A stretch of 64,000 nt of DNA from Symmachiella macrocystis (GTDB lineage: Bacteria > Planctomycetota > Planctomycetia > Planctomycetales > Planctomycetaceae). Below the pieces are notes generated by a model. That model was not told the DNA's origin, ran no database searches, and worked only from the letters and a program-made list of their open reading frames with translations. The position numbers and the translations under genes were made by a program. The DNA lies in the NCBI RefSeq assembly GCF_007860075.1, contig NZ_SJPP01000003.1, forward strand, positions 310,001 through 374,000, given 5' to 3'. Shown here one piece after another: positions 13,167-25,017 of the stretch (the stretch's first letter is position 1; each line of letters starts with the position of its first letter).

Positions 13167-13329
13167 TTCCCGCTCCCCTCACCTGCCACATCACAGTACT
13201 GCTGCTGCAAACTAATCTAATGTATGATTCTAACAACGAGTTTTGTGAAAACGCACTGCCGCCGGGTCGTTTAAATCTCGTTCCTGGCCAATTCTCGTAT
13301 ATGATACGGATTTGCACGGAGAGCATAGC

Positions 13330-13836
13330 ATGGCAATTCACTATCGCGAAGAAACCGCGGACGATCTGCGTGCGATCCACCAAGTCAATACGGCAGCGTT
13401 CGGCCTGCCTGCCGAAGGGAACCTCGTTGACCTGTTGCGGAACGATGGATTGGCCGTTGTCTCCTATGTTGCTGTCTCAAACCACGCACTTGTCGGGCAT
13501 ATTCTCTTCAGTGAACTGCCGATTGAAACTAAACAAACGACGATTCCCGCAGTTGCCTTGGCCCCCATGGCGGTCTTGCCGCAATTCCAGAGACAGGGCA
13601 TTGGTACCGAATTGGTTCGGCGCGGTTTGGATATCTGCCGGGAACGAGGGCAGCAGGTGGTGATTGTCTTGGGGCATCCCGCTTACTACCCCCGTTTCGG
13701 GTTTTCGTCCGAGTTGGCCAAGCGGATTTCCTCGCCATTTTCCGACGAAGCCTTCATGGCGCTCGAACTGGTTGCGGGAGTTCTGGATAATGTGCAGGGG
13801 CAGGTTACCTATCCGCCACCATTTTTCTCGGTGTGA
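13330..13836 (+). CDS. GNAT family N-acetyltransferase (COG3153 type)
   Basis: 168-residue acetyl-CoA-dependent acyltransferase. N-terminal MAIHYREETADDLRAIHQVNTAAFG is followed by the acetyl-CoA binding motif A, LAPMAVLPQFQRQGIGTELVRRGL (Q-x-x-G-x-G loop at about residues 84-89). The VIVLGHPAYYPRFGF block is typical of the YhbS/COG3153 branch. Acceptor unknown. The ATG at 13330 has GGAGAG about six bases upstream; an in-frame TTG lies at 13312. It is divergent from Ppx/GppA and convergent with the ABC ATPase gene. Confidence 0.88.
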   Translation: MAIHYREETADDLRAIHQVNTAAFGLPAEGNLVDLLRNDGLAVVSYVAVSNHALVGHILFSELPIETKQTTIPAVALAPMAVLPQFQRQGIGTELVRRGLDICRERGQQVVIVLGHPAYYPRFGFSSELAKRISSPFSDEAFMALELVAGVLDNVQGQVTYPPPFFSV

Positions 13837-13876: not shown

Positions 13877-14596
13877 CTACCACTGAATATCGTGCGGCGA
13901 AGTTCGTTGGGTATTCACTTGGGCCTCGGCGATGGTCCCCTGCCCCAGTTTGATCACACGATGACCCAAATGCGAGATGGGGTTATTGTGTGTGATCAAC
14001 ACAATCGTCTTTCCCAACTCCGCGCACAGCCGGTCTAACAACTCCAGCACCATGCGTCCGGTTGACAAATCAAGCGCCCCGGTTGGTTCATCACAGAGCA
14101 GCAACGTGGGATCCTTGGCCAGTGCGCGGGCAATCGCCACGCGTTGTTGTTCGCCCCCGGACAGTTGTGAAGGGAAGTGATCTTTGCGATCTCCCAGTCC
14201 AACCATTTCCAGCACTTCGTCCACGTCCATCGGCGTACGGGATATTTCGGTGGAAACCAGCACGTTTTCGCGAGCCGTCAATGTGGGTACGAGATTGTAG
14301 AACTGAAACACGAATCCCACATGCTCGCGGCGATAGGCGGTCAATTCCCGCTCGTTGAGCTGCGTCAAATCGCAGTCTTGGAAAAAAACATCGCCCGAAG
14401 TGGGGCTGTCGATCCCACCGATGATATTCAACAGCGTGCTCTTGCCCGAACCCGAGGGACCGACAATCACCATGATTTCGCCGGCGTAGATCTCTAAGTC
14501 GACGTCGTGCAACACCGGCACTTCGACTTCGCCCATGCGATAGGTCTTGCTCACCCCGGAGAGCTGAAACAATGTCTGCGTCGCTGTGTTTGTCAC
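13877..14596 (-). CDS. ABC transporter ATP-binding protein (MacB/LolD type)
   Basis: 239-residue ATPase. Walker A GPSGSGKST (about 46-54), Q-loop VFQFYNLVPTL, signature LSGGEQQR (about 146), Walker B LLLCDEPTGALD and switch His in VLITHN are all present. The family usually pairs with an FtsX/MacB-like permease to work on lipoproteins, peptides or cell division, but no permease lies next to this gene. GTG at 14596 is chosen because AAGGAGG stands seven bases before it. It is the last gene of a minus-strand run whose previous gene encodes a BFD-like [2Fe-2S] protein only 17 bases upstream. Confidence 0.92.
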   Translation of the reverse strand: MTNTATQTLFQLSGVSKTYRMGEVEVPVLHDVDLEIYAGEIMVIVGPSGSGKSTLLNIIGGIDSPTSGDVFFQDCDLTQLNERELTAYRREHVGFVFQFYNLVPTLTARENVLVSTEISRTPMDVDEVLEMVGLGDRKDHFPSQLSGGEQQRVAIARALAKDPTLLLCDEPTGALDLSTGRMVLELLDRLCAELGKTIVLITHNNPISHLGHRVIKLGQGTIAEAQVNTQRTSPHDIQW

Positions 14597-14613
14597 CGCT
14601 CTCCCTCCTTGAA

Positions 14614-14949
14614 TCAAGCGATCGAATCCGAATCGTGACTGGACGTCCCGGGAAGCGGAATCGCGCCGGCGGGTGGCGTTCCGTTTCCAGCAGCGATGTA
14701 AGCGGCCCGTTGTTGAGCATACTCCTCAGCCGACTGAGACTCATTTCCCGGTTCGTTGGTTGTGGCAGCGGCCTCGAAGTATCGTTTCAAATACGAAACG
14801 CACCAACCACAACCGGTTCCCGCACCGCCGCACTGGCTGACTTGGCTGGGACGCTTCAGTTTGTGAATGCGGATGTAGTTAACTATCTTCCGCTTGCTCA
14901 CGTGGAAACAGTAACAAATTGTATCGTCGAGTTCCAAAGCCGGACTCAC
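14614..14949 (-). CDS. BFD-like [2Fe-2S]-binding protein
   Basis: 111-residue protein with an N-terminal BFD-type [2Fe-2S] domain. The ligand pattern is C-x-C (ICYCFHVS, residues 12-14) and then CGGAGTGCGWC about 30 residues later, giving the C-x-C-x(about 30)-C-x(n)-C arrangement of bacterioferritin-associated ferredoxin and of the BFD domains of nitrite reductase and copper chaperones. A C-terminal extension of about 50 low-complexity residues (NEPGNESQSAEEYAQQ and a Gly/Pro stretch) is additional to the usual 60-70-residue Bfd. The start is a GTG. It sits between the DUF1559-type gene (34 bases upstream) and the ABC ATPase (17 bases downstream). Electron transfer or iron mobilisation is inferred; no bacterioferritin gene is in the window. 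Confidence 0.82.
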   Translation of the reverse strand: MSPALELDDTICYCFHVSKRKIVNYIRIHKLKRPSQVSQCGGAGTGCGWCVSYLKRYFEAAATTNEPGNESQSAEEYAQQRAAYIAAGNGTPPAGAIPLPGTSSHDSDSIA

Positions 14950-14983
14950 TTCCCCATCAACCGCGGGACGAAATCCGGCGGAA

Positions 14984-16615
14984 TTATTTTTTGTTCAGTT
15001 CGCTAATCACAATCTTACCATCTCCAATTGTCGCACCCAAACCGACAGATTCAAGCAACTGCTCGAAAACTTCTCCCACCGTCACGTCTTCAAACTCTAG
15101 CTGTACCGGGTGGTCCCATATTTTTTTCTCAGCCCGACAGCGACGAGCGTCGTAATCCAACGGGACAGCCACCATTTCGGCGAGTTCTTCAAACACCGGA
15201 CCAAAGGTGGCACCGTCACCCGATTGATACCGCAGCACCGGTTGGTCCAAGCGAGCATGGATCTGTTTGTCTGTCAGCGGAGGCGGCTTGGCGGCAGCTT
15301 CTTTTTCGGCGCGCTGTTGTTTCTCCGTTTCTGCGATTTCATCGACGATGAGGACCAATTCGTCAATCGAAACGTCGTCGGTCGGCGGGGTCTTGTCGCC
15401 GGCTTTGTCCTCAGTCGTTGCGTCTTTCACCGGCTCTTCGTTAGCGGCGATCACCAGCGGTGGATGTTCGCGGTAATAGGCATCGGCCATCGCTGCTTCG
15501 CCGCGCAGAATGGCAGCATCGGTTTGTGCAGAATGGAACTTCACACTGCCGTCGGCCATCAAAACCCACATCCCGTCCGCTTGACCGCTGCCAAAACCAT
15601 CAGGCCCATTGATATACGGCTCGTTAACAAATCCCCGCACTGTCGCTGGACCACCGGCCGCCCAAGACCCCAAGCGAGACTGGACCCCCGCCACCATGAT
15701 GGTCTGCGACAAGCCATCTTTGACGTCCGCCTCCGTGGTTTTTCGGTCATATCCAAAAATACCCGCCCGCTCATGAGACACCGGAAGTTGCGCCGCATCA
15801 TCCCCCACACCTGCCATACCCACGAAATGACTAGCGGGAAAACCATTGTCTCCCACCAATGGCTCCACATCGGGATTCAAAAACACCGACATCCGACGTC
15901 GCACAAAACGTAGATTGACTGGATCACTCCAGGATTGGTCCCAACGGGGAGTCAATTCGCGACCCGAGGATTGTGTGGACAAGCGTGCTAACCAACTGAA
16001 CCGTTCCGTAGGCTCGTCGGAGCCATTCGTCCCTTGCGGAAAATGCCCGGTGTCCTTGCGCTGCTGCTGGATCAACTGGCCAAGGCGGGACAATTGACCT
16101 TTCGCATCACCCCCCGGCGCGTCCCACAGCAATAGTGCCGGCTCGACGTCATCGTCTTGAACCCCCTCATCGTTACCACCCTCCTCATTCTCAAGTAAAG
16201 CATCCGGAGCCGTTTCCTTCAGTGCGGCGGGCGGCGCGATCTTGGCATCTGCCAGTTTATCGACGCGCGACGGGGCCGAGTCGGTGGCGATGACCACCGT
16301 CATACAGATTCCAAAGACGGCAGCGACGGCCCATGCAATCACATGCGGCTCATTCCACCATACAGCTTTGCCCTCATCCTCGTCATCGACCAATACGCCT
16401 GTCGCAATCGTGTGCGCTGCGGCCGGTGCCTGTTCGGCCGGTTCCATTTCGCTCGTAACCGGCGGGACATCTAGGATTGACACGTGACGGCCATCGTAGG
16501 CCAACCGGAAAGCTTCACCGCAATCGGGACACGGGACTTCGCGACCGACCAGCGCGCTATCCTTAACTCTCAGCAATGCGGCGCAGTGCGGACATTGAAA
16601 CGAAAATGGTTGCAT
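14984..16615 (-). CDS. Zinc-ribbon, membrane-anchored DUF1559-type protein with STN-like C-terminus
   Basis: 543 residues in a mosaic arrangement. (1) MJ0042-like zinc ribbon: CPHC (about 8-11) and CPDC (about 29-32). (2) One transmembrane helix near residues 90-108 (VIAWAVAAVFGICMTVVIA). (3) DUF1559-like pseudopilin-related module with HFVGMAGVGDD, FGYDRKTTEADVKDGLSQTIMV and the closing VLMADGSVKFHS motif, followed by DAAILRGEA. (4) Ala/Lys/Glu-rich linker. (5) About 80 C-terminal residues (LEFEDVTVGEVFEQLLESVGLGATI) resembling the STN domain of secretins/TonB receptors. The zinc ribbon would be cytoplasmic and the rest outside. The neighbouring gene at 16683 has the same N- and C-terminal modules. 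No known function. Confidence 0.72.
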   Translation of the reverse strand: MQPFSFQCPHCAALLRVKDSALVGREVPCPDCGEAFRLAYDGRHVSILDVPPVTSEMEPAEQAPAAAHTIATGVLVDDEDEGKAVWWNEPHVIAWAVAAVFGICMTVVIATDSAPSRVDKLADAKIAPPAALKETAPDALLENEEGGNDEGVQDDDVEPALLLWDAPGGDAKGQLSRLGQLIQQQRKDTGHFPQGTNGSDEPTERFSWLARLSTQSSGRELTPRWDQSWSDPVNLRFVRRRMSVFLNPDVEPLVGDNGFPASHFVGMAGVGDDAAQLPVSHERAGIFGYDRKTTEADVKDGLSQTIMVAGVQSRLGSWAAGGPATVRGFVNEPYINGPDGFGSGQADGMWVLMADGSVKFHSAQTDAAILRGEAAMADAYYREHPPLVIAANEEPVKDATTEDKAGDKTPPTDDVSIDELVLIVDEIAETEKQQRAEKEAAAKPPPLTDKQIHARLDQPVLRYQSGDGATFGPVFEELAEMVAVPLDYDARRCRAEKKIWDHPVQLEFEDVTVGEVFEQLLESVGLGATIGDGKIVISELNKK

Positions 16616-16682
16616 ATCAGTCGGCCCTCACCAGCGACTCACTCGTCTCCAATTTCAGGACATCAACGTTCACCTTCGTGCG

Positions 16683-18482
16683 TCAAGGTTCCACCGCGGC
16701 TGCGGGCACCAACCGTAGCGGTGCTTCCCCCCGTTCCATTGCCGCCTTGGCGGTGGTAATGATTGCGCGGTCTTGTGTCTCACGGACAACTACGACCATC
16801 CCTTCTACGGTCAAAATACGATCCAGAACAGCCGTCGCCGGCGTCTGTTGCATCGCGAATTCCTGCGGCAGGTTTTGCGTGACACCGATCAACATCAAAT
16901 CATCCCCCATGATTTCCATCTCCACACCGGTTTCGCTGGCGATATAGGCAATCGCTTCATGCAACGGTGTCCGCCGAAATTCACAGTCGATCGGCTTGGC
17001 CAACCGCTGGGCAATGGTTCTCGGAATAGGTACGGGGTTTGTCGCAGGGACCGTACTTGGTTCCGACGTGGATTTGCGCAGTGACTCCCGCCACGCTAAT
17101 CGGGAAGCCAGCGCCAAATTTGGTCCTGCGATTTCTGGAAGCTGCGTCTTCACAATCGCATGCCCCCCTTCCCTGTCAATTTTTGTCCCTCGTTCCACCG
17201 CTAAACACATCGCCGGAAAACGACCCAAGACCCGTTTCGTCCCCACGCTTTGCGGATTCCACAGCGAGACCGTTTCCAACATCGATTCCGGCAATCGCTG
17301 CATCTTCTCCGTCAACCCCCGCTGCAACCGGTCGACATCGAACCGAGTTCGAGGCTGCACGACCGCCTGAGAGCGAAACGCTGGCTGTAGCCGCACACCC
17401 CACGACAGAGTGGCCGCATCGTCCCCCAGCCAGTCCAAGACAGCGGCCACTAATCTAAATACGTCGCCCGACACCAACGATTCACTATGAATTCGTAAAT
17501 CGGCCGGTTCGCAAATCACGGTCAGTTGGTCGTCCCGGTCACTTTGCCGCACAATACGCAGCAAATTCTCGCGCGTCATGGCCGGAGTTTTGATCGTTTC
17601 GCTCCAATCCGCAACCATGGTTGAGGGGCAAAAGGCAAAGGTTTGCTCATCGATCAACAAATACGACCGCGTCGGTCCCACGTAATAAGGCAACTCGATG
17701 TCACTTTTTCGCTCACCCTCAAACAGCGGGATCAATTCGGAGCGTTTCCTCGGCTGGGCGAGCGTAATCACCCCAGCTATCTCAACAGCCTCACCCGGTG
17801 AGCCAAAATAGAAGCAAAACTTGGCTTCTTGAATGTCCTCGGGAGGGAAGAGACACTTTTGCTGGATCCATTCGCTCAAACTGGCCCGCAATGGCTCGCC
17901 GAGACAGTCCAGAACATTGCCTCCCGCCGGAGCAGCGGCCCAGATCTCCGCCGGACGCAGATGTACCAACAAGCCCATACCGTGCGGGACGTACTGTAGG
18001 TCGATCGCCGGTCCCTTTGTGACTTTGGGCAACGAACTCGTTGCTGCCGGTTGAGTCGGCGCCGTCGGGAGCGGTGCCGCCTTGTTGGGTGTCGCCTGGT
18101 TCACATTGGTAACCGCCGGATCCGGACCGCGCTGAAACAGCCACCACCATCCACCACCGAACAGCGCCAAACAGGTCGCAGCCGCCGCTACGATCCACAC
18201 TCCACCCCGATCGCGCCGCCGGCGGGAGCGCAGTCGCGCCGAGACACTCGGTTCATCGGCGACGTCAATCTGTATTCCCGCGGCAGGCGGCGGGGGTGTA
18301 GTTGGCTGAGGTGCTTCCGGTGCATGGGCCGGCTCTGCTAACTCCAACTCGACTGCCGCCGGATCGATAAGTGGAAAGCGGGTTTCGCACTGCGGGCATT
18401 TGCCGATCTTCCCTAACAGCTTCGGATCGCGCAATTTCAGTTTTGAACCGCAATGCGGACAAGGAATCACAATCGGCTGCAT
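16683..18482 (-). CDS. Zinc-ribbon, membrane-anchored protein with STN-like C-terminus
   Basis: 599 residues. The N-terminus MQPIVIPCPHCGSKLKLRD...CPQC is a zinc ribbon nearly superposable on that of the gene at 14984. A basic RSRRRRDR stretch precedes a transmembrane helix (VWIVAAAATCLALFGGGWWWLF, near 105-126). A 350-residue exterior region follows with no motif I recognise (begins after a Pro/Thr linker; has LLVHLRPAEIWAAAP). The last 110 residues (IDCEFRRTPLHEAIAYIASETGVEME...) have the STN/secretin-N-like pattern. The start is ATG 18482 with GGAG about seven bases upstream; the frame is open further upstream. It lies 84 bases after the response regulator and 67 before the DUF1559-type gene. 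Function unknown. Confidence 0.72.
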   Translation of the reverse strand: MQPIVIPCPHCGSKLKLRDPKLLGKIGKCPQCETRFPLIDPAAVELELAEPAHAPEAPQPTTPPPPAAGIQIDVADEPSVSARLRSRRRRDRGGVWIVAAAATCLALFGGGWWWLFQRGPDPAVTNVNQATPNKAAPLPTAPTQPAATSSLPKVTKGPAIDLQYVPHGMGLLVHLRPAEIWAAAPAGGNVLDCLGEPLRASLSEWIQQKCLFPPEDIQEAKFCFYFGSPGEAVEIAGVITLAQPRKRSELIPLFEGERKSDIELPYYVGPTRSYLLIDEQTFAFCPSTMVADWSETIKTPAMTRENLLRIVRQSDRDDQLTVICEPADLRIHSESLVSGDVFRLVAAVLDWLGDDAATLSWGVRLQPAFRSQAVVQPRTRFDVDRLQRGLTEKMQRLPESMLETVSLWNPQSVGTKRVLGRFPAMCLAVERGTKIDREGGHAIVKTQLPEIAGPNLALASRLAWRESLRKSTSEPSTVPATNPVPIPRTIAQRLAKPIDCEFRRTPLHEAIAYIASETGVEMEIMGDDLMLIGVTQNLPQEFAMQQTPATAVLDRILTVEGMVVVVRETQDRAIITTAKAAMERGEAPLRLVPAAAVEP

Positions 18483-18566
18483 GAAGCGCTCCGAAACTAC
18501 TGACTTCCAGGGCATCCAGAATCGGCTCAGCTCCGAGCCATCGCCGAGATGCCGGGGTGATCGCAA

Positions 18567-19190
18567 TCAGTTCTTTTCGGCCTGACCGCCGACCTCGGTC
18601 ATAATCCTCACGAGATCGACAACGGAGTCCGTGTTCATCTTCCGCATAATGCTCGTGCGCTGATTGCGAACGGTGTTAAAACTTGTGCCAAGCTGTGCAG
18701 CGATCGTTTTGGTTGGATTCCCCTCAATGATCAATGCCAACACGGTTTTTTCGCGCGGCGTGAGGGTATCGACCCGCTTTTGAAGTTCGCGGTTGCGATT
18801 CCATTGCTTCCGCGCCTCGAGGTTTTTCCCCATGGCGTCTCGCACCCGGCGAATCAAATCATCAGCACGAAACGGCTTTTCGATAAAATCAGTGGCCCCC
18901 GTTTTCATCGCGCCGACAGCCATCGAAACATCCGCGTGGCCGGTGAGAATGATGGTGGTCACCGGAACTTCCATTTTCGACAAATGCCGCTGCAATTCCA
19001 AACCGCTCATCCCCGGCATCCGCACATCCAAAAGCAAACAGCCGGCGCGTTCCGGGTCAAAGCGATCCAAAAACTCTAATGCGTCGGAGTACATTTCCGT
19101 GCGGATTTTCGCGGTGGACAGTAGAGTCGCTAACGAGTCACGAATGATTTGATCGTCATCGATAACAAAGACAGTTGGCTCGTGAGTCAT
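18567..19190 (-). CDS. FixJ-family response regulator (REC + LuxR HTH)
   Basis: 207 residues. REC domain 1-120 with acidic cluster DDD at 11-13, phosphoacceptor Asp55 (LLLDVRMPG), Thr83 (ILTGHAD) and Lys105 (EKPF). The LuxR-type HTH follows at about 140-200: LTPREKTVLALIIEGNPTKTIAAQLGTSFNTVRNQRTSIMRKM. The domain order and the DVRMPG/GATDFIEKPF wording place it with FixJ/TodT/NarL-type regulators. It overlaps the stop codon of the histidine kinase by four bases (ATGA) and has AAGGA seven bases before the start, so the pair is almost certainly cognate. Confidence 0.94.
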   Translation of the reverse strand: MTHEPTVFVIDDDQIIRDSLATLLSTAKIRTEMYSDALEFLDRFDPERAGCLLLDVRMPGMSGLELQRHLSKMEVPVTTIILTGHADVSMAVGAMKTGATDFIEKPFRADDLIRRVRDAMGKNLEARKQWNRNRELQKRVDTLTPREKTVLALIIEGNPTKTIAAQLGTSFNTVRNQRTSIMRKMNTDSVVDLVRIMTEVGGQAEKN

Positions 19191-22100
19191 AGGGACGTCC
19201 TTTCAATAACTGGCAAGGAGAATCGAAACATCGTCCCATTGGCTGAGGTGTTGGCCACATACAAGCGGCCGCCGTGAGCCTCGATGATAGTTCTGCTGAT
19301 GGAAAGCCCCATCCCCATACCATTGTCCTTCGTCGAATAAAACTGTTCAAATACGCGGTCGACATCCGTCGAGGCAATTCCTGGACCGTTGTCGGCCACC
19401 TCGACATCTATCATCTCGTCCGTTGTTGCTGAAACAGAAATCGCCAATAACGGCTGCTGGATACGCGCAACCTCCATAGCTTCTATGGCATTGCGGACGA
19501 GATTGAGAATCACCTGCTCGATTTGTATCCGGTCAGCCAGTACGCCAGGGACCTCATCGGGAGCGCCGATTCGGACCTCAACCCCGGACTGAGCAACGTC
19601 TGCGTCAACAAGTGCTACGACTTCTCGAATCGCGTCATCCAAGTCCACCGCATGATACATAGAATCGCGTCGAACTACTAGTTTTCGCAGTCGTCGCACA
19701 ATTTCTCCTGCCCGTTGCGCTTGAGCCTCAATTTTGCTAAGGACCTCAGACAGCTTTTCAGAATGCGGTGTTGCCGAGGCAGACTCCAACATCATCAAAC
19801 AGGCAGCCGCATAGGATGCGATCCCCGAAATCGGCTGATTCAACTCATGCGCGATCCCTGTCGCCATTTCTCCCATCGTGCTCAGCCGTGTGACATGCGC
19901 TAGCTCATCACGATGTCGACGACTCCGCTCCTCGGCTTGGCGTTCCGCCGACACGTCCCGCACAATCGCCAACAGATCGTCCTTGGCACCGACCAGAATG
20001 CGTGTTTCGTAATCATGGGGGATTCCGTCGAGATCCAAGCGGTATTCAATCACTTGTGCCTTGCCGGTCTCCGCAGCTTTGCGTTGCGCTTCCACGCTGA
20101 GTTGGGCAACGTAGGGTGGTAGAACGTCTTCGATTTTTTTCCCTAGAAACTCCTCCCGAGGCAAATACGGAGGAGAATCGGCGGCTGGTATGAAATCGAG
20201 TAGCGTCCCGTCCCGGTGAACACGGAAAATCATATCTGGAATCGCTTCAAGTAGCGCGCGTAGCATCGATTCGCTATTCCGCAGTTCCTCCTCCGCCTGC
20301 ACGCGGGCGGTCACATCCTGCGTTGTTCCGGAAAGCATTATCGCGTTTCCAGAATCATCATACGTCACTTTTGCTTGTCCATGAACGTGCTTCTCTGTTC
20401 CGCTGGGAAGTACGACACGGTAATCGATACTATAAAGGCCGGTTTTCTCAATGGCCTTGGCGAACGTTTCGCTCACAAGTTTGCGGTCGTCGGGATGCAC
20501 AATGTCTAAGTAACGCAAAAATGAACCGTTAAATCCCTCAGCGCTAACTTCAAATATACGGAACATCTCATCGGACCACTCGATTTGGCTCGTTTCCAAG
20601 TTCCAATCCCAGTTCCCCAGGTGCGCCATCTCTTGAGCAGCCTGCAGGCGTTCCTTGCTTTTTCGTATGGTTTCATCCGCAAGCACACGATGGGTGACAT
20701 CCAATAACGTGACAATCAGGCCGATCACCTTTCCGCCACGGTCTTTAACCGGCGTCAACGCCCAATTCCAATAGGTCACCGGCTTTTGGGAATCCAAGAC
20801 ATTGGCAAACGGTTTCGCCCATTCCGAATGCGGCTCTGTCGATTCGATCACCGACTGAAAAATAGTCCGCAACTCCTCGTTGCGATAGACATCAAAGAAA
20901 TAATTTCCAGGCACAAATCGTGGACAGATGCCCTCCTCCGCTGCTTCGGACCACGCACGATTGACCATCAGATAATTCAGTTGAACATCCAAATAGGCAA
21001 TCAGGAATTGCGTATTGTCGAAGATTGCCTCTAACAACTGATGCGCTTCGTTCAACGATGCCTCAGCCTGTTTGCGTTCGTCAATGTCAGTGGCGAATAT
21101 GGAGACTCCATCCACTTCACCATCGCGAAAAATCGGACCATACCGGATGCTGTACCAATGCCGTTTTCCCCGTGGGCCACGTGCCAACGCTTCAACGCTG
21201 GCAAACTCACCGGTTGTAAAAACCTCATTCATCAGTGTTTGCAATTCGTCACGATACGCAGCGTCGGCCAGATCGAAAACAGAGCGGCCGTGCAACAATT
21301 TTCCCGGGACACCCACCGGAGTGCGATTGGCATACGTAATCCGCGCGCTGCGATCGACCGTGACCAGATAGTCGGGCGCTGCCTGAACCATAGAGCGCCA
21401 GCGCGATTCGGAGGCCTCTAACGCCGCTGTTCGTTCAGCCACCCGCCGTTCCAAATCGCCTTGTGCTGCACGCAGTGATTTCTCATACTGTCGCCGCTCA
21501 GTCATATCGGTGATGACCGAAATGTATCCAACAACCTGTCCGGAAGCGTTGCGTTTGTAATCCCAGTCCATCTGCACATAAAAAACGCGACCGTCGGCGG
21601 CGCGATGTCGCGTGATCAGCGGCTTTGCCGGCGGCTGCTCAGTGCGACACATCTTAAAATACCGGCAAAAGTCGTCCGATTCCTGTTGAGTCGGCAACAA
21701 ATCCAGGACCGATCGGCCGATGCGCTCTCCCGGCCGATATCCCAACATTCGATCGCACGCCGAATTGCAATACAGCAGGACACCGTCCAGGTTGAACTCT
21801 TGAATACCGTAAGGAACCGTTTCGATCAAAGCATGGTAACGGTCGACCCCATTCCGGATTTCGGCTGCCACCAGCTTCGCAGCCGTCACGTTTGTATTCG
21901 TCCCCAATAGACGAATCGGCACGCACTCCGCATTGCGTATAATACGGCCGCGACAAACAAACCATAATGCCTGTCCATTTTTGTGGACAAGCCGTTGCTC
22001 AAATTCGAACGAACGCTCATCATTTTCCAACGACGCCTGTGACTGCCCACGCGTCCGCTCACGATCGTCGGGATGGACCAATTCAGACCAAGCCTCCAAC

Positions 22101-22540
22101 CGATTCGGAATCTCATGGTCTTGGTACCCTAAGATTTCCTTCAAACAAGGATCGATGAACAAATCGTTCGTCTGTAGATCCCAATCCCAAACACCAATTT
22201 GGTGTGACATAGCGGTGGATGTGTACTGCCTTGCAATCTCGTGCAGTGAATCAGGCGGAATCGCCGTCACCTGTCGCTCGGTGGAATCATACCCCGCGAG
22301 AGTTTCCGACATCGCGGTCGCCGTAACCTTAGCGAATTGATTGAGCGTCAATTCAGGTTGCTCGCTGACTAAACGCGATTGCGCCTTTTCCAACAGCCGG
22401 ACAACGTCCATCAAGGAAATCTCAGCGCAAGCAGCTTGACGACCCAATTTCGCAAATGGGCTGGAAGCCTGCGGCTGCGCTGCTACGACACTTTGTCGCA
22501 GTAAATCATAAAAAGCATCGCAGCATTCCTGATTGGTCAT
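19187..22540 (-). CDS. Multi-PAS sensor histidine kinase (FixL-like transmitter)
   Basis: 1117 residues, no transmembrane segment, so a soluble sensor. After about 100 N-terminal residues I count six PAS modules, each ended by a PAC-type tail: ~113-222 (VHPDDRERTR), ~230-352 (TDMTERRQYE), ~378-490 (ATDIDERKQAE), ~500-620 (LLDVTHRVL), ~630-750 (TTQDVTARVQAEE) and ~755-870 (VRDVSAERQAEE). A coiled stretch at ~355-378 precedes the third. The transmitter has H-box GEMATGIAHELNQPISGIASYA, N-box VILNLVRNAIEAM, and G-box region DNGPGI and GMGMGLSISRTIIEAHGG. This H-box type is that of FixL/DctB. The third and fourth PAS lack an evident haem or flavin ligand by eye, so the signal is unknown. Coupled by overlap to the FixJ-like regulator. 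Confidence 0.94.
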   Translation of the reverse strand: MTNQECCDAFYDLLRQSVVAAQPQASSPFAKLGRQAACAEISLMDVVRLLEKAQSRLVSEQPELTLNQFAKVTATAMSETLAGYDSTERQVTAIPPDSLHEIARQYTSTAMSHQIGVWDWDLQTNDLFIDPCLKEILGYQDHEIPNRLEAWSELVHPDDRERTRGQSQASLENDERSFEFEQRLVHKNGQALWFVCRGRIIRNAECVPIRLLGTNTNVTAAKLVAAEIRNGVDRYHALIETVPYGIQEFNLDGVLLYCNSACDRMLGYRPGERIGRSVLDLLPTQQESDDFCRYFKMCRTEQPPAKPLITRHRAADGRVFYVQMDWDYKRNASGQVVGYISVITDMTERRQYEKSLRAAQGDLERRVAERTAALEASESRWRSMVQAAPDYLVTVDRSARITYANRTPVGVPGKLLHGRSVFDLADAAYRDELQTLMNEVFTTGEFASVEALARGPRGKRHWYSIRYGPIFRDGEVDGVSIFATDIDERKQAEASLNEAHQLLEAIFDNTQFLIAYLDVQLNYLMVNRAWSEAAEEGICPRFVPGNYFFDVYRNEELRTIFQSVIESTEPHSEWAKPFANVLDSQKPVTYWNWALTPVKDRGGKVIGLIVTLLDVTHRVLADETIRKSKERLQAAQEMAHLGNWDWNLETSQIEWSDEMFRIFEVSAEGFNGSFLRYLDIVHPDDRKLVSETFAKAIEKTGLYSIDYRVVLPSGTEKHVHGQAKVTYDDSGNAIMLSGTTQDVTARVQAEEELRNSESMLRALLEAIPDMIFRVHRDGTLLDFIPAADSPPYLPREEFLGKKIEDVLPPYVAQLSVEAQRKAAETGKAQVIEYRLDLDGIPHDYETRILVGAKDDLLAIVRDVSAERQAEERSRRHRDELAHVTRLSTMGEMATGIAHELNQPISGIASYAAACLMMLESASATPHSEKLSEVLSKIEAQAQRAGEIVRRLRKLVVRRDSMYHAVDLDDAIREVVALVDADVAQSGVEVRIGAPDEVPGVLADRIQIEQVILNLVRNAIEAMEVARIQQPLLAISVSATTDEMIDVEVADNGPGIASTDVDRVFEQFYSTKDNGMGMGLSISRTIIEAHGGRLYVANTSANGTMFRFSLPVIERTSL

Positions 22541-22832: not shown

Positions 22833-22860
22833 AAAAAAGGCCGCTCCGAAGAGCGGCCTT
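22833..22860 (-). terminator. Intrinsic terminator of the PEP-CTERM gene
   Basis: Perfect 10-bp stem AAGGCCGCTC/GAGCGGCCTT around a CGAA (TTCG on the minus strand) tetraloop, followed on the minus strand by T-rich sequence from the A-run at 22833-22838. It stands 31 bases after the stop of the gene at 22892. Confidence 0.92.
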
Positions 22861-22891: not shown

Positions 22892-23737
22892 TTACGACTT
22901 CGACTGGCGGCGACGCCAACCGTAACCGGCCAATCCAATGGCACCGAGTCCCAACAATAGGAAGCTGGACGGTTCCGGAACAGCGGCGGGGGCCACAAAA
23001 TCATTTCGCATGCCACCATCTAGGGCGCTGGTCTCCAGATAGTCAACGTAGCCGATGGTGTCCGCATTCCCGGACCCGACCCCCAACTGAACTTGAACGA
23101 TCGTCGAGTTCTGCAGAATGTTTCCCCATGTGCCATCCGCAAACCATTCGTTGAGCGTCAAACTGTTATGCGGTGCGTTAATCACGCCTGTTGCGGTCGT
23201 GCTTTCTCGGCTGAACATCCACCATGTCCCGTTATCAGCGTCGATCGATTGAGTGACCCACGTTCCCACAGGTGTCGTGCCAGCGTTGGGATTGTCGTAC
23301 GGCTCATAAATCAGGACTTTGTCCCAATCCTGCTCCCCAATTCGACCTGACGGACTACCGACGTATTCGCTGGTCTTCAAACCGAGTTTCAGAGCTGGTG
23401 CAGGTGCGCCGACCGGGCTGTCTTTGTACCAACGATACTCAGCCGTGAATAATGAATCGAGAGCACCGAAGCCATTGGCGGTGTTGACTCGGGCGATTGT
23501 CGCCTTGTCGTTACTAGTGGGCGACGACAGCTGCACCGCACCGGTTCCAGCAACATTAGTGAAATCAATCCGCTGCGCAATCTCTGCGGGTGTAGTCGCA
23601 TTGACGCCATTAATCCTTGTGTCCGTCGACACCCAACTATTGTCACCTAAGGCACCAACGTCAATTGTGGCGGCTGAAGCCGATTGTGCCAGAGTTAAGG
23701 TGATCAGTAACGCGACGCTCATTGCAATCGACTTCAT
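22892..23737 (-). CDS. PEP-CTERM sorting domain protein
   Basis: 281-residue exported protein. Signal peptide MKSIAMSVALLITLTLAQSASA. The mature part is Ala/Thr/Asn-rich and beta-structured, without catalytic motif (contains TWWMFSRES, GYVDYLETSA). The C-terminus is a full PEP-CTERM tag: VPEPSSFLLLGLGAIGLAGYG followed by basic WRRRQSK, with the PEP motif about 27 residues from the end. Such proteins are processed by an exosortase and go to the cell surface or exopolysaccharide matrix; no exosortase is in the window. GGGGAG precedes the ATG by nine bases. It is monocistronic, ended by the strong hairpin at 22833-22860. Confidence 0.92.
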   Translation of the reverse strand: MKSIAMSVALLITLTLAQSASAATIDVGALGDNSWVSTDTRINGVNATTPAEIAQRIDFTNVAGTGAVQLSSPTSNDKATIARVNTANGFGALDSLFTAEYRWYKDSPVGAPAPALKLGLKTSEYVGSPSGRIGEQDWDKVLIYEPYDNPNAGTTPVGTWVTQSIDADNGTWWMFSRESTTATGVINAPHNSLTLNEWFADGTWGNILQNSTIVQVQLGVGSGNADTIGYVDYLETSALDGGMRNDFVAPAAVPEPSSFLLLGLGAIGLAGYGWRRRQSKS

Positions 23738-24591: not shown

Positions 24592-25017
24592 TCAGTCGAT
24601 AAATTGCAGCATGCTGGAGCAGAATTTGCATTTGACCATTTGGCCGGCATATTTTTGCGCCACTTTCAGCCGTTCTTCACAACTGGGGCAATCGAGGTAA
24701 AAACCCAAGTTTTTGATCTTGGGATCACTCAGCGTCAACGTGAAGGTTTTGCTGCATTTCTTGCAGTTGAGTCGCTTGCCCAAATACTGGGCGTTGATTC
24801 GCAAACGTTTGCGGCAATGTGGGCAACCAACGTAATAACCACGTGGCTTGGCATCCACGCAACTATCAATCTCTTTCAATGGTTTAAAGGGCGGAATCTC
24901 CACGCTTTCGAGTTCCAATTCTTCGTTGAGCAACGTGCGGCAATTCACACAACGAATCAGGTTCGCGGGCATTTCTTCGTTACAAGTGGGGCAAGGACCG
25001 CCTGGCCAAGCTGGCAT
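24592..25017 (-). CDS. Protein with three zinc ribbons
   Basis: 141 residues almost wholly made of C-x-x-C pairs. Ribbon 1: CPTC / CVNC (residues 9-12, 23-26). Ribbon 2: CPHC / CKKC (about 65-68, 84-87). Ribbon 3: CPSC / CKFC (about 109-112, 128-131). Ribbons 2 and 3 share the layout hydrophobic-CPxC-x-x-(R/L)-(L)-(R/K)-(hydrophobic)...YxGxxxxCKxC, so they are probably duplicates. Similar to MJ0042-type zinc fingers on the two proteins at 14984 and 16683. No transmembrane helix. Nucleic-acid or protein binding is the usual role; no specific function can be assigned. Confidence 0.78.
   Translation of the reverse strand: MPAWPGGPCPTCNEEMPANLIRCVNCRTLLNEELELESVEIPPFKPLKEIDSCVDAKPRGYYVGCPHCRKRLRINAQYLGKRLNCKKCSKTFTLTLSDPKIKNLGFYLDCPSCEERLKVAQKYAGQMVKCKFCSSMLQFID

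Follow-up and report, generated by a model that had tools for sequence, protein, structure and literature searches.

The six-gene run described here consists of two separable units that abut: a FixL/FixJ-like kinase-regulator pair and a planctomycete envelope gene set encoding two zinc-ribbon membrane proteins (here called ZA and ZB), a BFD-like protein and an ABC ATPase. Judging from sequence comparison, the latter four genes are members of an envelope set common to relatives, for which we found no description in the literature searched (mostly open-access). The window, that is, the whole 64,000-nucleotide stretch of Symmachiella macrocystis DNA that was analysed, had been reported in a first-pass annotation to carry six minus-strand genes spaced by at most 84 bases, with a 4-base overlap of kinase and regulator. 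The coordinates taken from the ORF list agree with this report:

19187-22540, minus strand: kinase ORF, 1117 aa
18567-19190, minus strand: regulator ORF (RR), 4-base overlap with the kinase
16683-18482, minus strand: ZA ORF, ATG start, gap of 84 bases from the regulator
14984-16615, minus strand: ZB ORF, gap of 67 bases from ZA
14614-14949, minus strand: BFD-like ORF, GTG start, gap of 34 bases from ZB
13877-14596, minus strand: ABC ATPase ORF, GTG start preceded by a AAGGAGGGAG stretch, gap of 17 bases from BFD

We compared 61 genomes of the family, 60 of which contain ZA. The neighbourhood table comprises 60 ZA loci including 59 relatives; G054 was omitted because its match to ZA covers the ribbon only. 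By a strict test, ZA-ZB was present in 30 of the 60 loci and ZA-ZB-BFD in 19. The strict ribbon test misses two loci (L102 and L106) that both have a ZB-like gene in the table, and at four of the 60 less than 600 bases of contig follow ZA. Outside the family, 19 of 22 loci of the class also have ZA-ZB. The ZA-ZB-BFD order is more than chance, as it returns in different genera. The BFD gene lies away from ZA in many genomes, and the ATPase gene follows it in only 6/60 loci (at L061 with about 1 kb in between that has no recognised gene). The full order ZA-ZB-BFD-ABC-permease-adaptor occurs at four of the 60 ZA loci (L064, L072, L084, L112) and additionally at two Gimesia loci (L228, L232). For the ZA profile, the best five candidates per genome were scored in the phylum search and the best eight in the class search. 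Absences of ZA outside the family are weak, since neither list gives every genome without a match.

ZA and ZB had been described as sharing their end modules and differing in the middle, and this proved correct. Both are laid out as a zinc ribbon, a TM segment, a middle domain (TP0453-like in ZA, DUF1559/SBP_bac_10 in ZB) and a secretin N0/STN-like domain. The Cys4 ribbon of ZB is likewise N-terminal, and its TM segment lies at residues 92-110 by hydropathy. The following parts could be placed on the DNA:

18363-18482, minus strand: ZA residues 1-40, Cys4 zinc ribbon (four Cys invariant in 51 aligned sequences)
18150-18206, minus strand: ZA residues 93-111, TM segment (hydropathy; modelled helix 96-110, low confidence)
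17097-18002, minus strand: ZA residues 161-462, TP0453-like domain (structure search on a predicted model)
16719-17018, minus strand: ZA residues 489-588, secretin N0/STN-like domain (structure comparison on a predicted model)
15530-16051, minus strand: ZB residues 189-362, DUF1559 (SBP_bac_10) region (Pfam 41.0 bits, cut-off 23.3)
14996-15268, minus strand: ZB residues 450-540, secretin N0/STN-like domain (XcpQ N-terminal domain, Z 8.3, rmsd 2.4 A, predicted model)

The predicted model of the ZA middle matched the lipoprotein TP0453 with a Foldseek E of 7e-7 (prob 1.00) and a Z of 11.1 (rmsd 5.4 A); the next unrelated row for this region reached only Z 4.5. The shared fold spans 225 of the 250 residues of TP0453, but identity is 9%, and ZA adds the TM segment, the ribbon and the C-terminal N0 domain. 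Rows with a GAPDH-type fold (Foldseek and VIA, Z about 3.5-4) were treated as background. The modelled C-terminal domain of ZA resembles EscC (Z 10.1) and the PilQ N0 domain (Z 10.0) with an rmsd of 2.5 A, and that of ZB, also a predicted model, gave Z 8.2-8.3 to EscC and XcpQ, which is near the middling level. In the ZB fold comparison (VIA list), only residues 450-543 are well covered and the DUF1559 region carries no fold claim. The C-terminal fold of both proteins is thus like the N0/STN domain of GspD, PilQ, EscC, FpvA and PupR, but ZA and ZB have no secretin barrel domain and carry a TM anchor and a ribbon in its place. Against the STN profile (PF07660), no match was listed for ZA up to E 0.1, and ZB scored 17.1 against a cut-off of 28.4. 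The DUF1559 domain (PF07596), left unnamed in the first-pass annotation, matches ZB above the cut-off in two stretches, the best at 189-316; an HX9DG motif match at 351-362 falls below its model cut-off.

We rejected a LysW-like carrier role for the ribbons, since the matches of the window proteins are sub-threshold and the ribbon is the N-terminal module of a membrane protein. A GltJ-like gliding protein was likewise rejected on a sub-threshold match. The LysW ribbon cut-off of 27 is passed by two ZB proteins from other families (L269, 31.1; L275, 30.2).

The BFD-like protein was correctly recognised at first pass, as Fer2_BFD passes its Pfam cut-off (41.0 vs 26). It shares this domain and the CxC and CxxC pairs with Bfd (bacterioferritin-associated ferredoxin) but has one more invariant Cys, and its C-terminal tail is conserved. 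Residues C12, C14, C40, C47 and C50 of this [2Fe-2S] protein are invariant in 30 sequences, and the Bfd equivalog model gave 19.4 bits, below its cut-off of 75.

The ATPase is of the LolD/MacB/DevA type (ABC_tran, 132.1 bits), and its best solved relatives include MJ0796, YtrE, MacB and LolD. It remains under the cut-offs of the LolD, DevA, MacB and YbbA models, for example with 208.7 bits against 307.75 for the LolD equivalog and 208.8 against 295.8 for the DevA subfamily (the DevBCA glycolipid exporter). The earlier description as an orphan without a permease holds for the immediate neighbourhood, but elsewhere the same genome encodes a permease and an adaptor of the type expected as partners:

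L128:7915-10293, minus strand: FtsX-type permease, on another contig (G000:C1, about 3.20 Mb)
L128:6516-7817, minus strand: HlyD-type adaptor, beside the permease (G000:C1, about 3.20 Mb)

No ATPase of this type is found among the genes shown around this pair. Although not adjacent here, the FtsX-type permease is supported as partner by co-occurrence and by the runs in relatives. Strong ATPase and permease matches are present in an identical 35 of the 61 family genomes, and 26 have neither; G023 and G039 have two of each. The cut-offs (200 bits for the permease, 230 for the ATPase) were set at gaps in the score lists, and weaker ATPase and FtsX matches exist in every genome. The co-occurrence (p = 8e-18) treats genomes as independent and is indicative only. 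In 26 of 37 cases the two genes adjoin, or in 27 if G019 is counted, where the permease match is in two pieces. The trees of ATPase, permease and adaptor agree in a division into two clades (100/100 support), and the window ATPase, the own-genome permease and the adaptor each pair with G023 (93/92, 99/98 and 100/100, respectively). The finer branching differs: G048 groups with G000 and G023 for the permease but not for the ATPase. The next-best ATPase of the own genome scores 199 bits vs 524. Given the runs in relatives, the C1 permease-adaptor pair without an ATPase and the occurrence in the same 35 genomes, the most likely role of the 'orphan' ATPase is as motor of a type VII ABC exporter whose genes are split between loci.

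With its LolD/MacB-type ATPase and double-FtsX permease, this putative exporter is similar to the type VII systems MacAB-TolC, LolCDE and YbbAP-TesA, and the HlyD-like adaptor is similar to that of MacAB. It differs in that the permease is a fused chain with about eight TM segments by hydropathy and the ATPase is encoded away from it. Both permeases scanned contain two FtsX stretches and 7 or 8 TM segments by hydropathy. To our knowledge, none of these three systems includes ZA, ZB or BFD. One report gives 10 TM segments for YbbP and four for the other type VII systems of E. coli (PMC12646458).

As best explanation, to which we give roughly even confidence, the envelope set and the split type VII exporter would together move a hydrophobic envelope component, with ZA and ZB assisting. 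Anatomy, conservation, co-occurrence, the split locus and the agreement of the trees at the two-clade level were computed directly; that the set handles a hydrophobic envelope component is inferred. ZA and ZB would be single-pass proteins with the zinc ribbon in the cytosol and the other domains in the periplasm, ending in N0. The ATPase, the fused double-FtsX permease and the HlyD-like adaptor would assemble as exporter, and ATP hydrolysis would shift the periplasmic parts of the permease. A hydrophobic component, possibly a lipid, glycolipid or lipoprotein, could then be lifted from the inner membrane and handed to the adaptor. According to the same report, type VII transporters act periplasmically, among other things by pulling molecules out of the membrane; for YbbAP-TesA, extraction of hydrophobic compounds is proposed (PMC12646458). 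ZA may bind or chaperone such a component, although sharing the TP0453 fold, here in a predicted model, is no proof that lipid is bound. ZA and ZB may also dock through their N0 domains, either to one another or to a secretin-type machine. The apparent functional link of ZA and ZB to the exporter is a genomic one. With ZA in 60/61 genomes and the exporter in 35/61, both proteins must work without the exporter in many genomes.

It is possible, though rather unlikely, that ZA and ZB instead assist a planctomycete type II secretion or pseudopilus machine as accessory components and that the exporter is a mere neighbour. The N0 domains would then touch a secretin, and the DUF1559 domain of ZB would mimic or contact pilins. 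Both N0 folds fit this reading, as does the DUF1559 domain, which according to PMC8567305 is also found in the majority of planctomycete proteins that have a prepilin motif. The exporter is missing in 26/61 genomes, and ZA is present in all 26. However, among the few neighbours that were read (first 250 residues), none was recognisably a secretin, and several ZB proteins of the family with about 275-400 aa (L112, L064, L072) have no detectable DUF1559 domain. The signalling proteins PupR, FoxA and FpvA have STN-like domains as well.

The latter point, that N0/STN folds occur in PupR/FpvA-type signalling, would suit a still more doubtful reading of ZA as a trans-envelope signalling receptor that reports a periplasmic ligand to the cytosol through interchangeable ribbon or pseudokinase modules. 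Instead of the ribbon, ZA relatives from the other families of the class often carry a degenerate kinase domain. It passes the Pfam cut-off in nine of ten proteins scanned, and by eye its catalytic loop is degenerate and the DFG motif is missing. On the other hand, 7/22 other-family ZA proteins (460-572 aa) lack an N-terminal module altogether, so that an output in the cytosol is dispensable in some cases.

Within our preferred explanation of envelope transport, a wider proposal is more tentative. ZA-ZB might be an undescribed trans-envelope pair, present in many families of the class, with barrel-less secretin periplasmic domains, a lipid-carrier-like fold in ZA and an exchangeable cytosolic module (ribbon or pseudokinase). 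Its role could lie in the traffic of outer-membrane lipids or lipoproteins, shared with the split type VII exporter where present. The planctomycete envelope is unusual, and this cross-family pair, with its lipid-carrier-like fold, secretin domain and exchangeable module, offers a concrete candidate for envelope traffic particular to the lineage. In Planctopirus limnophila, about 20% of the essential genes have no known function (PMC10632474). The example of the ATPase also indicates that a distant likely partner can be assigned to an 'orphan' ABC ATPase by co-occurrence and agreeing trees.

The other unit of the run consists of a soluble histidine kinase without a TM segment by hydropathy and its regulator, a receiver with a LuxR HTH. 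A profile scan found six sensory_box stretches in the kinase, in line with the six PAS domains noted earlier, followed by a FixL-like transmitter (HisKA and HATPase_c). Transmitter and regulator are of the same sequence type as FixL/FixJ, but the kinase here has six PAS domains and both proteins score below the equivalog cut-offs (394.9 bits under 850 for FixL; 204.1 under 255 for FixJ). One of the six, PAS5, aligns with FixL chain residues 25-162, which we take to be the first, non-haem PAS. We therefore do not claim a haem-sensing FixL or oxygen sensing.

This pair was found upstream of ZA in 0/59 relatives, 55 of which have at least 700 bases before ZA and 47 at least 4.2 kb. A relative of the same genus has its RR orthologue (71% identity) on a different contig, amid other genes, and its genome contains no kinase match at E <= 1e-60. 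The pair thus appears to be a lineage-specific local neighbour, outside the conserved set. Of the candidate sensory/membrane module suggested at first pass, the membrane/envelope part survives as a conserved set within the run; the sensory pair is not included, and the six genes as one sensory unit find no support. The first-pass annotation had named a gene order not kept in relatives as counting against its reading, and this applies to the kinase-regulator part.

In a sigma-70 consensus scan, the gaps RR-ZA, ZA-ZB and BFD-ABC were free of promoter-like sites, and the nearest minus-strand match (15012-14983) overlaps the 3' end of ZB. Upstream of the kinase there is one further feature:

22837-22860, minus strand: terminator-like hairpin, 10 pairs (7 G-C), T tail

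The hairpin (22860-22837) possibly marks the boundary of the six-gene run. Promoter-like matches were rarer than in shuffled sequence (3 vs a mean of 5.4) and terminator-like matches about equal (11 vs 10.3), so that the scan says little. The common strand, the short gaps, the hairpin and the RR-ZA gap without a promoter-like match would fit a single operon in S. macrocystis, with the kinase detecting a cue and the regulator controlling the genes behind it. Such an operon would be of recent, local origin at most and is improbable, given that the pair was found upstream of ZA in none of the 59 relatives and that the RR orthologue is displaced in the same genus.

Weaker similarity to the kinase was seen at two other loci, in a 1137-aa kinase-like gene 1.9 kb upstream at L110 (74 bits) and in a 501-aa ORF directly downstream at L091 (21 bits).

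The six-gene run on the minus strand joins a local two-component pair to a conserved envelope set. Our ORF reading of the window agreed with the first-pass annotation on the six genes and the gaps between them, and a domain scan recovered the six PAS stretches it had assigned to the kinase. Model scans describe the kinase transmitter as FixL-like and the regulator (RR) as FixJ-like, although both score under the equivalog cut-offs for these models; hydropathy shows no hydrophobic segment in the kinase. The next two genes encode the zinc-ribbon membrane proteins ZA and ZB. The middle of ZB is a DUF1559 domain (Pfam scan), which the first-pass annotation had not recorded. The proposed [2Fe-2S] BFD-like protein (BFD) indeed scored above the Fer2_BFD cut-off, and the last gene, annotated as a MacB/LolD-type ATPase, proved to be of LolD/MacB/DevA type by domain, model and solved-structure comparison. 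Nearby, a GNAT acetyltransferase gene (13312-13836) is convergent to the ATPase gene, as at the same position in the same-genus locus L061. Upstream of the kinase, 22892-23737 encodes a protein whose C-terminus looks PEP-CTERM-like by eye; the small protein encoded at 24592-25017 contains several Cys4 ribbon motifs, of the general type in the ZA and ZB ribbons.

The expectation that the six genes stay together in relatives did not hold. The kinase-regulator pair was upstream of ZA in 0 of 59 relatives, 55 of which offered at least 700 bases of upstream sequence and 47 at least 4.2 kb. The matches near ZA were weaker: a kinase-like gene of 1137 aa lying 1.9 kb upstream in L110 (74 bits), a kinase-like gene 6.9 kb upstream in L086 (57 bits), an opposite-strand kinase-like and regulator-like pair 5.5–6.1 kb upstream in L068 (45.5 and 20 bits) and a 501-aa ORF directly downstream at the contig end in L091 (21 bits); L111 and L113 gave weak matches far downstream. 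G023, a genome of the same genus, carries its RR orthologue (71% identity) on contig C30 and ZA on C43. The neighbours of this RR (L259) did not match the window kinase at E 1e-5; by eye they encode an FHA-type and a Ser/Thr-kinase-type protein. The whole window kinase found no match in G023 at E <= 1e-60, a threshold passed in G057 (38% identity, residues 740–1111), beside the RR homologue of that genome.

Among 61 family genomes from 58 genera, ZA is present in 60 (the match in G054 covers the ribbon only) and BFD is strong (at least 88 bits) in 56, weak in G010, G014 and G022 and without a match in G007 and G054. We read the ZA neighbourhood in the 59 relatives and the window. By strict script tests, a ZB-like gene lies directly downstream of ZA in 30 of these 60 loci, ZA, ZB and BFD follow one another in 19, and the isoprenoid-pathway gene IspD sits no more than 700 bases upstream of ZA in 17 (including L062, L084 and L112). 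In the best 80 of 474 confirmed BFD-profile matches, several of which share contigs with the family genomes, the ZA-ZB-BFD order occurs in 22 loci. The suggestion of a sensory/membrane module stands for its membrane part, a conserved envelope set, but the kinase-regulator pair is only local, and its place ahead of ZA is not kept in relatives. In L143, ZB-BFD is preceded by MoxR-, DUF58- and BatA-like genes (by eye), and in L144 by genes of similar size; ZA lies about 10 kb away in both genomes.

By reading, the ATPase follows BFD in six of the 60 loci (L061, where about 1 kb separates them, L064, L072, L084, L112 and the window), and L064, L072, L084 and L112 carry an ATPase-permease-adaptor run. 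The ATPase also comes next in four of the 22 BFD-profile loci (L167, L176, L228, L232), two of them Gimesia loci with the complete exporter. When the permease from the L084 run and the window ATPase served as queries, the same 35 of 61 family genomes gave strong matches to both (above 200 and 230 bits, respectively) and 26 to neither; G023 and G039 have two of each. The sole strong permease match in the window's own genome is G000:C1:3202917-3205292 (966.6 bits, next 31). An HlyD-like adaptor follows it (L128), with no ATPase of the window type among the genes shown around it. Two FtsX stretches were found in both permeases scanned and HlyD domains in both adaptors scanned; four permeases each show 7 or 8 TM segments by hydropathy, read as a putative 4+4 layout. 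Trees of the ATPase (17 rows), permease (18) and adaptor (14, several of them fragments) contain the same two clades, each at 100/100, and G023 pairs with the window's genome in all three. In its finer branching the permease tree places G048 with G000 and G023; the ATPase tree does not, and is mostly weakly supported in this region. Because of the runs in relatives, the co-occurrence, the trees and the domain types, we assign the ATPase to a probable split exporter. The second exporter clade (L261, L262, L266, L267 and others) was not beside ZA-ZB-BFD in the loci read; G023 has both clades.

The ZA model (51 sequences, mean pLDDT 83.3) consists of a ribbon, a TM helix and domains at 161–462 and 489–588. 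The former is predicted to resemble TP0453 (Foldseek E 7e-7; VIA Z 11.1 over 225 residues, 5.4 A, 9% identity), the latter secretin N0 domains (EscC Z 10.1, PilQ Z 10.0, 2.5 A). ZB, modelled from 27 sequences (mean pLDDT 80.6, pTM 0.49), gave no Foldseek match at E <= 0.001; its C-terminal end is predicted to be of the same N0 type (Z about 8–9). For this domain, spike proteins of phages and injection systems reach scores similar to those of secretins, so what is matched is a small, common fold; given the domain order and position, an STN/N0 domain is the likelier reading of these models. The substrate class of the exporter we infer from the exporter class (PMC12646458) and the predicted TP0453-like fold of ZA. 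ZA and ZB appear tied to the exporter by genomic association alone, and as ZA is far more widespread, both must have an exporter-independent role. BFD perhaps serves redox or iron control.

Run against 148 genomes sampled from the class, the ZA profile found matches in 71 (37 own-family, 34 other), which does not imply completeness in the own family, as 57 non-matching genomes are unlisted; four of the 34 (family f88) match in the ribbon part only. A ribbon protein directly follows ZA on the same strand in 19 of 22 other-family loci fetched, counting L277 with a small opposite ORF in between, and not in L276, L286 and L292. DUF1559 was found in the ZB of L273 and L281 and not in that of L269, L270, L275 and L282. 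In L269, L270 and L273-L292 the ribbon of ZA is exchanged or absent, while the TM, middle and N0 parts are kept, as mostly is the ZB neighbour. Of the 15 long proteins, ten were scanned, and the N-terminus passed the protein-kinase cut-off in nine, with L273 below it at 22.5 bits; seven of the 22 (460–572 aa) are without an N-terminal module. By eye, the kinase-like domains have a degenerate catalytic loop, its Asp retained in L285, L290, L269 and L275, and the DFG motif is missing. From these sequences we read them as putative pseudokinases. Literature searches on planctomycete MJ0042/DUF1559, LolCDE, BFD, pseudokinases and ribbon/STN/secretin combinations showed no description of the gene set among the papers listed. 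The parts are of known kinds; the way they are combined and the exchange of modules in ZA are, as far as we could see, new. BFD is more widespread, occurring in 56 of the 246 genomes searched across the phylum; in G260 and G178 it is not linked to ZA. In L269 and L270, a beta-eliminating lyase gene (PF01212, more than 300 bits) precedes ZA.
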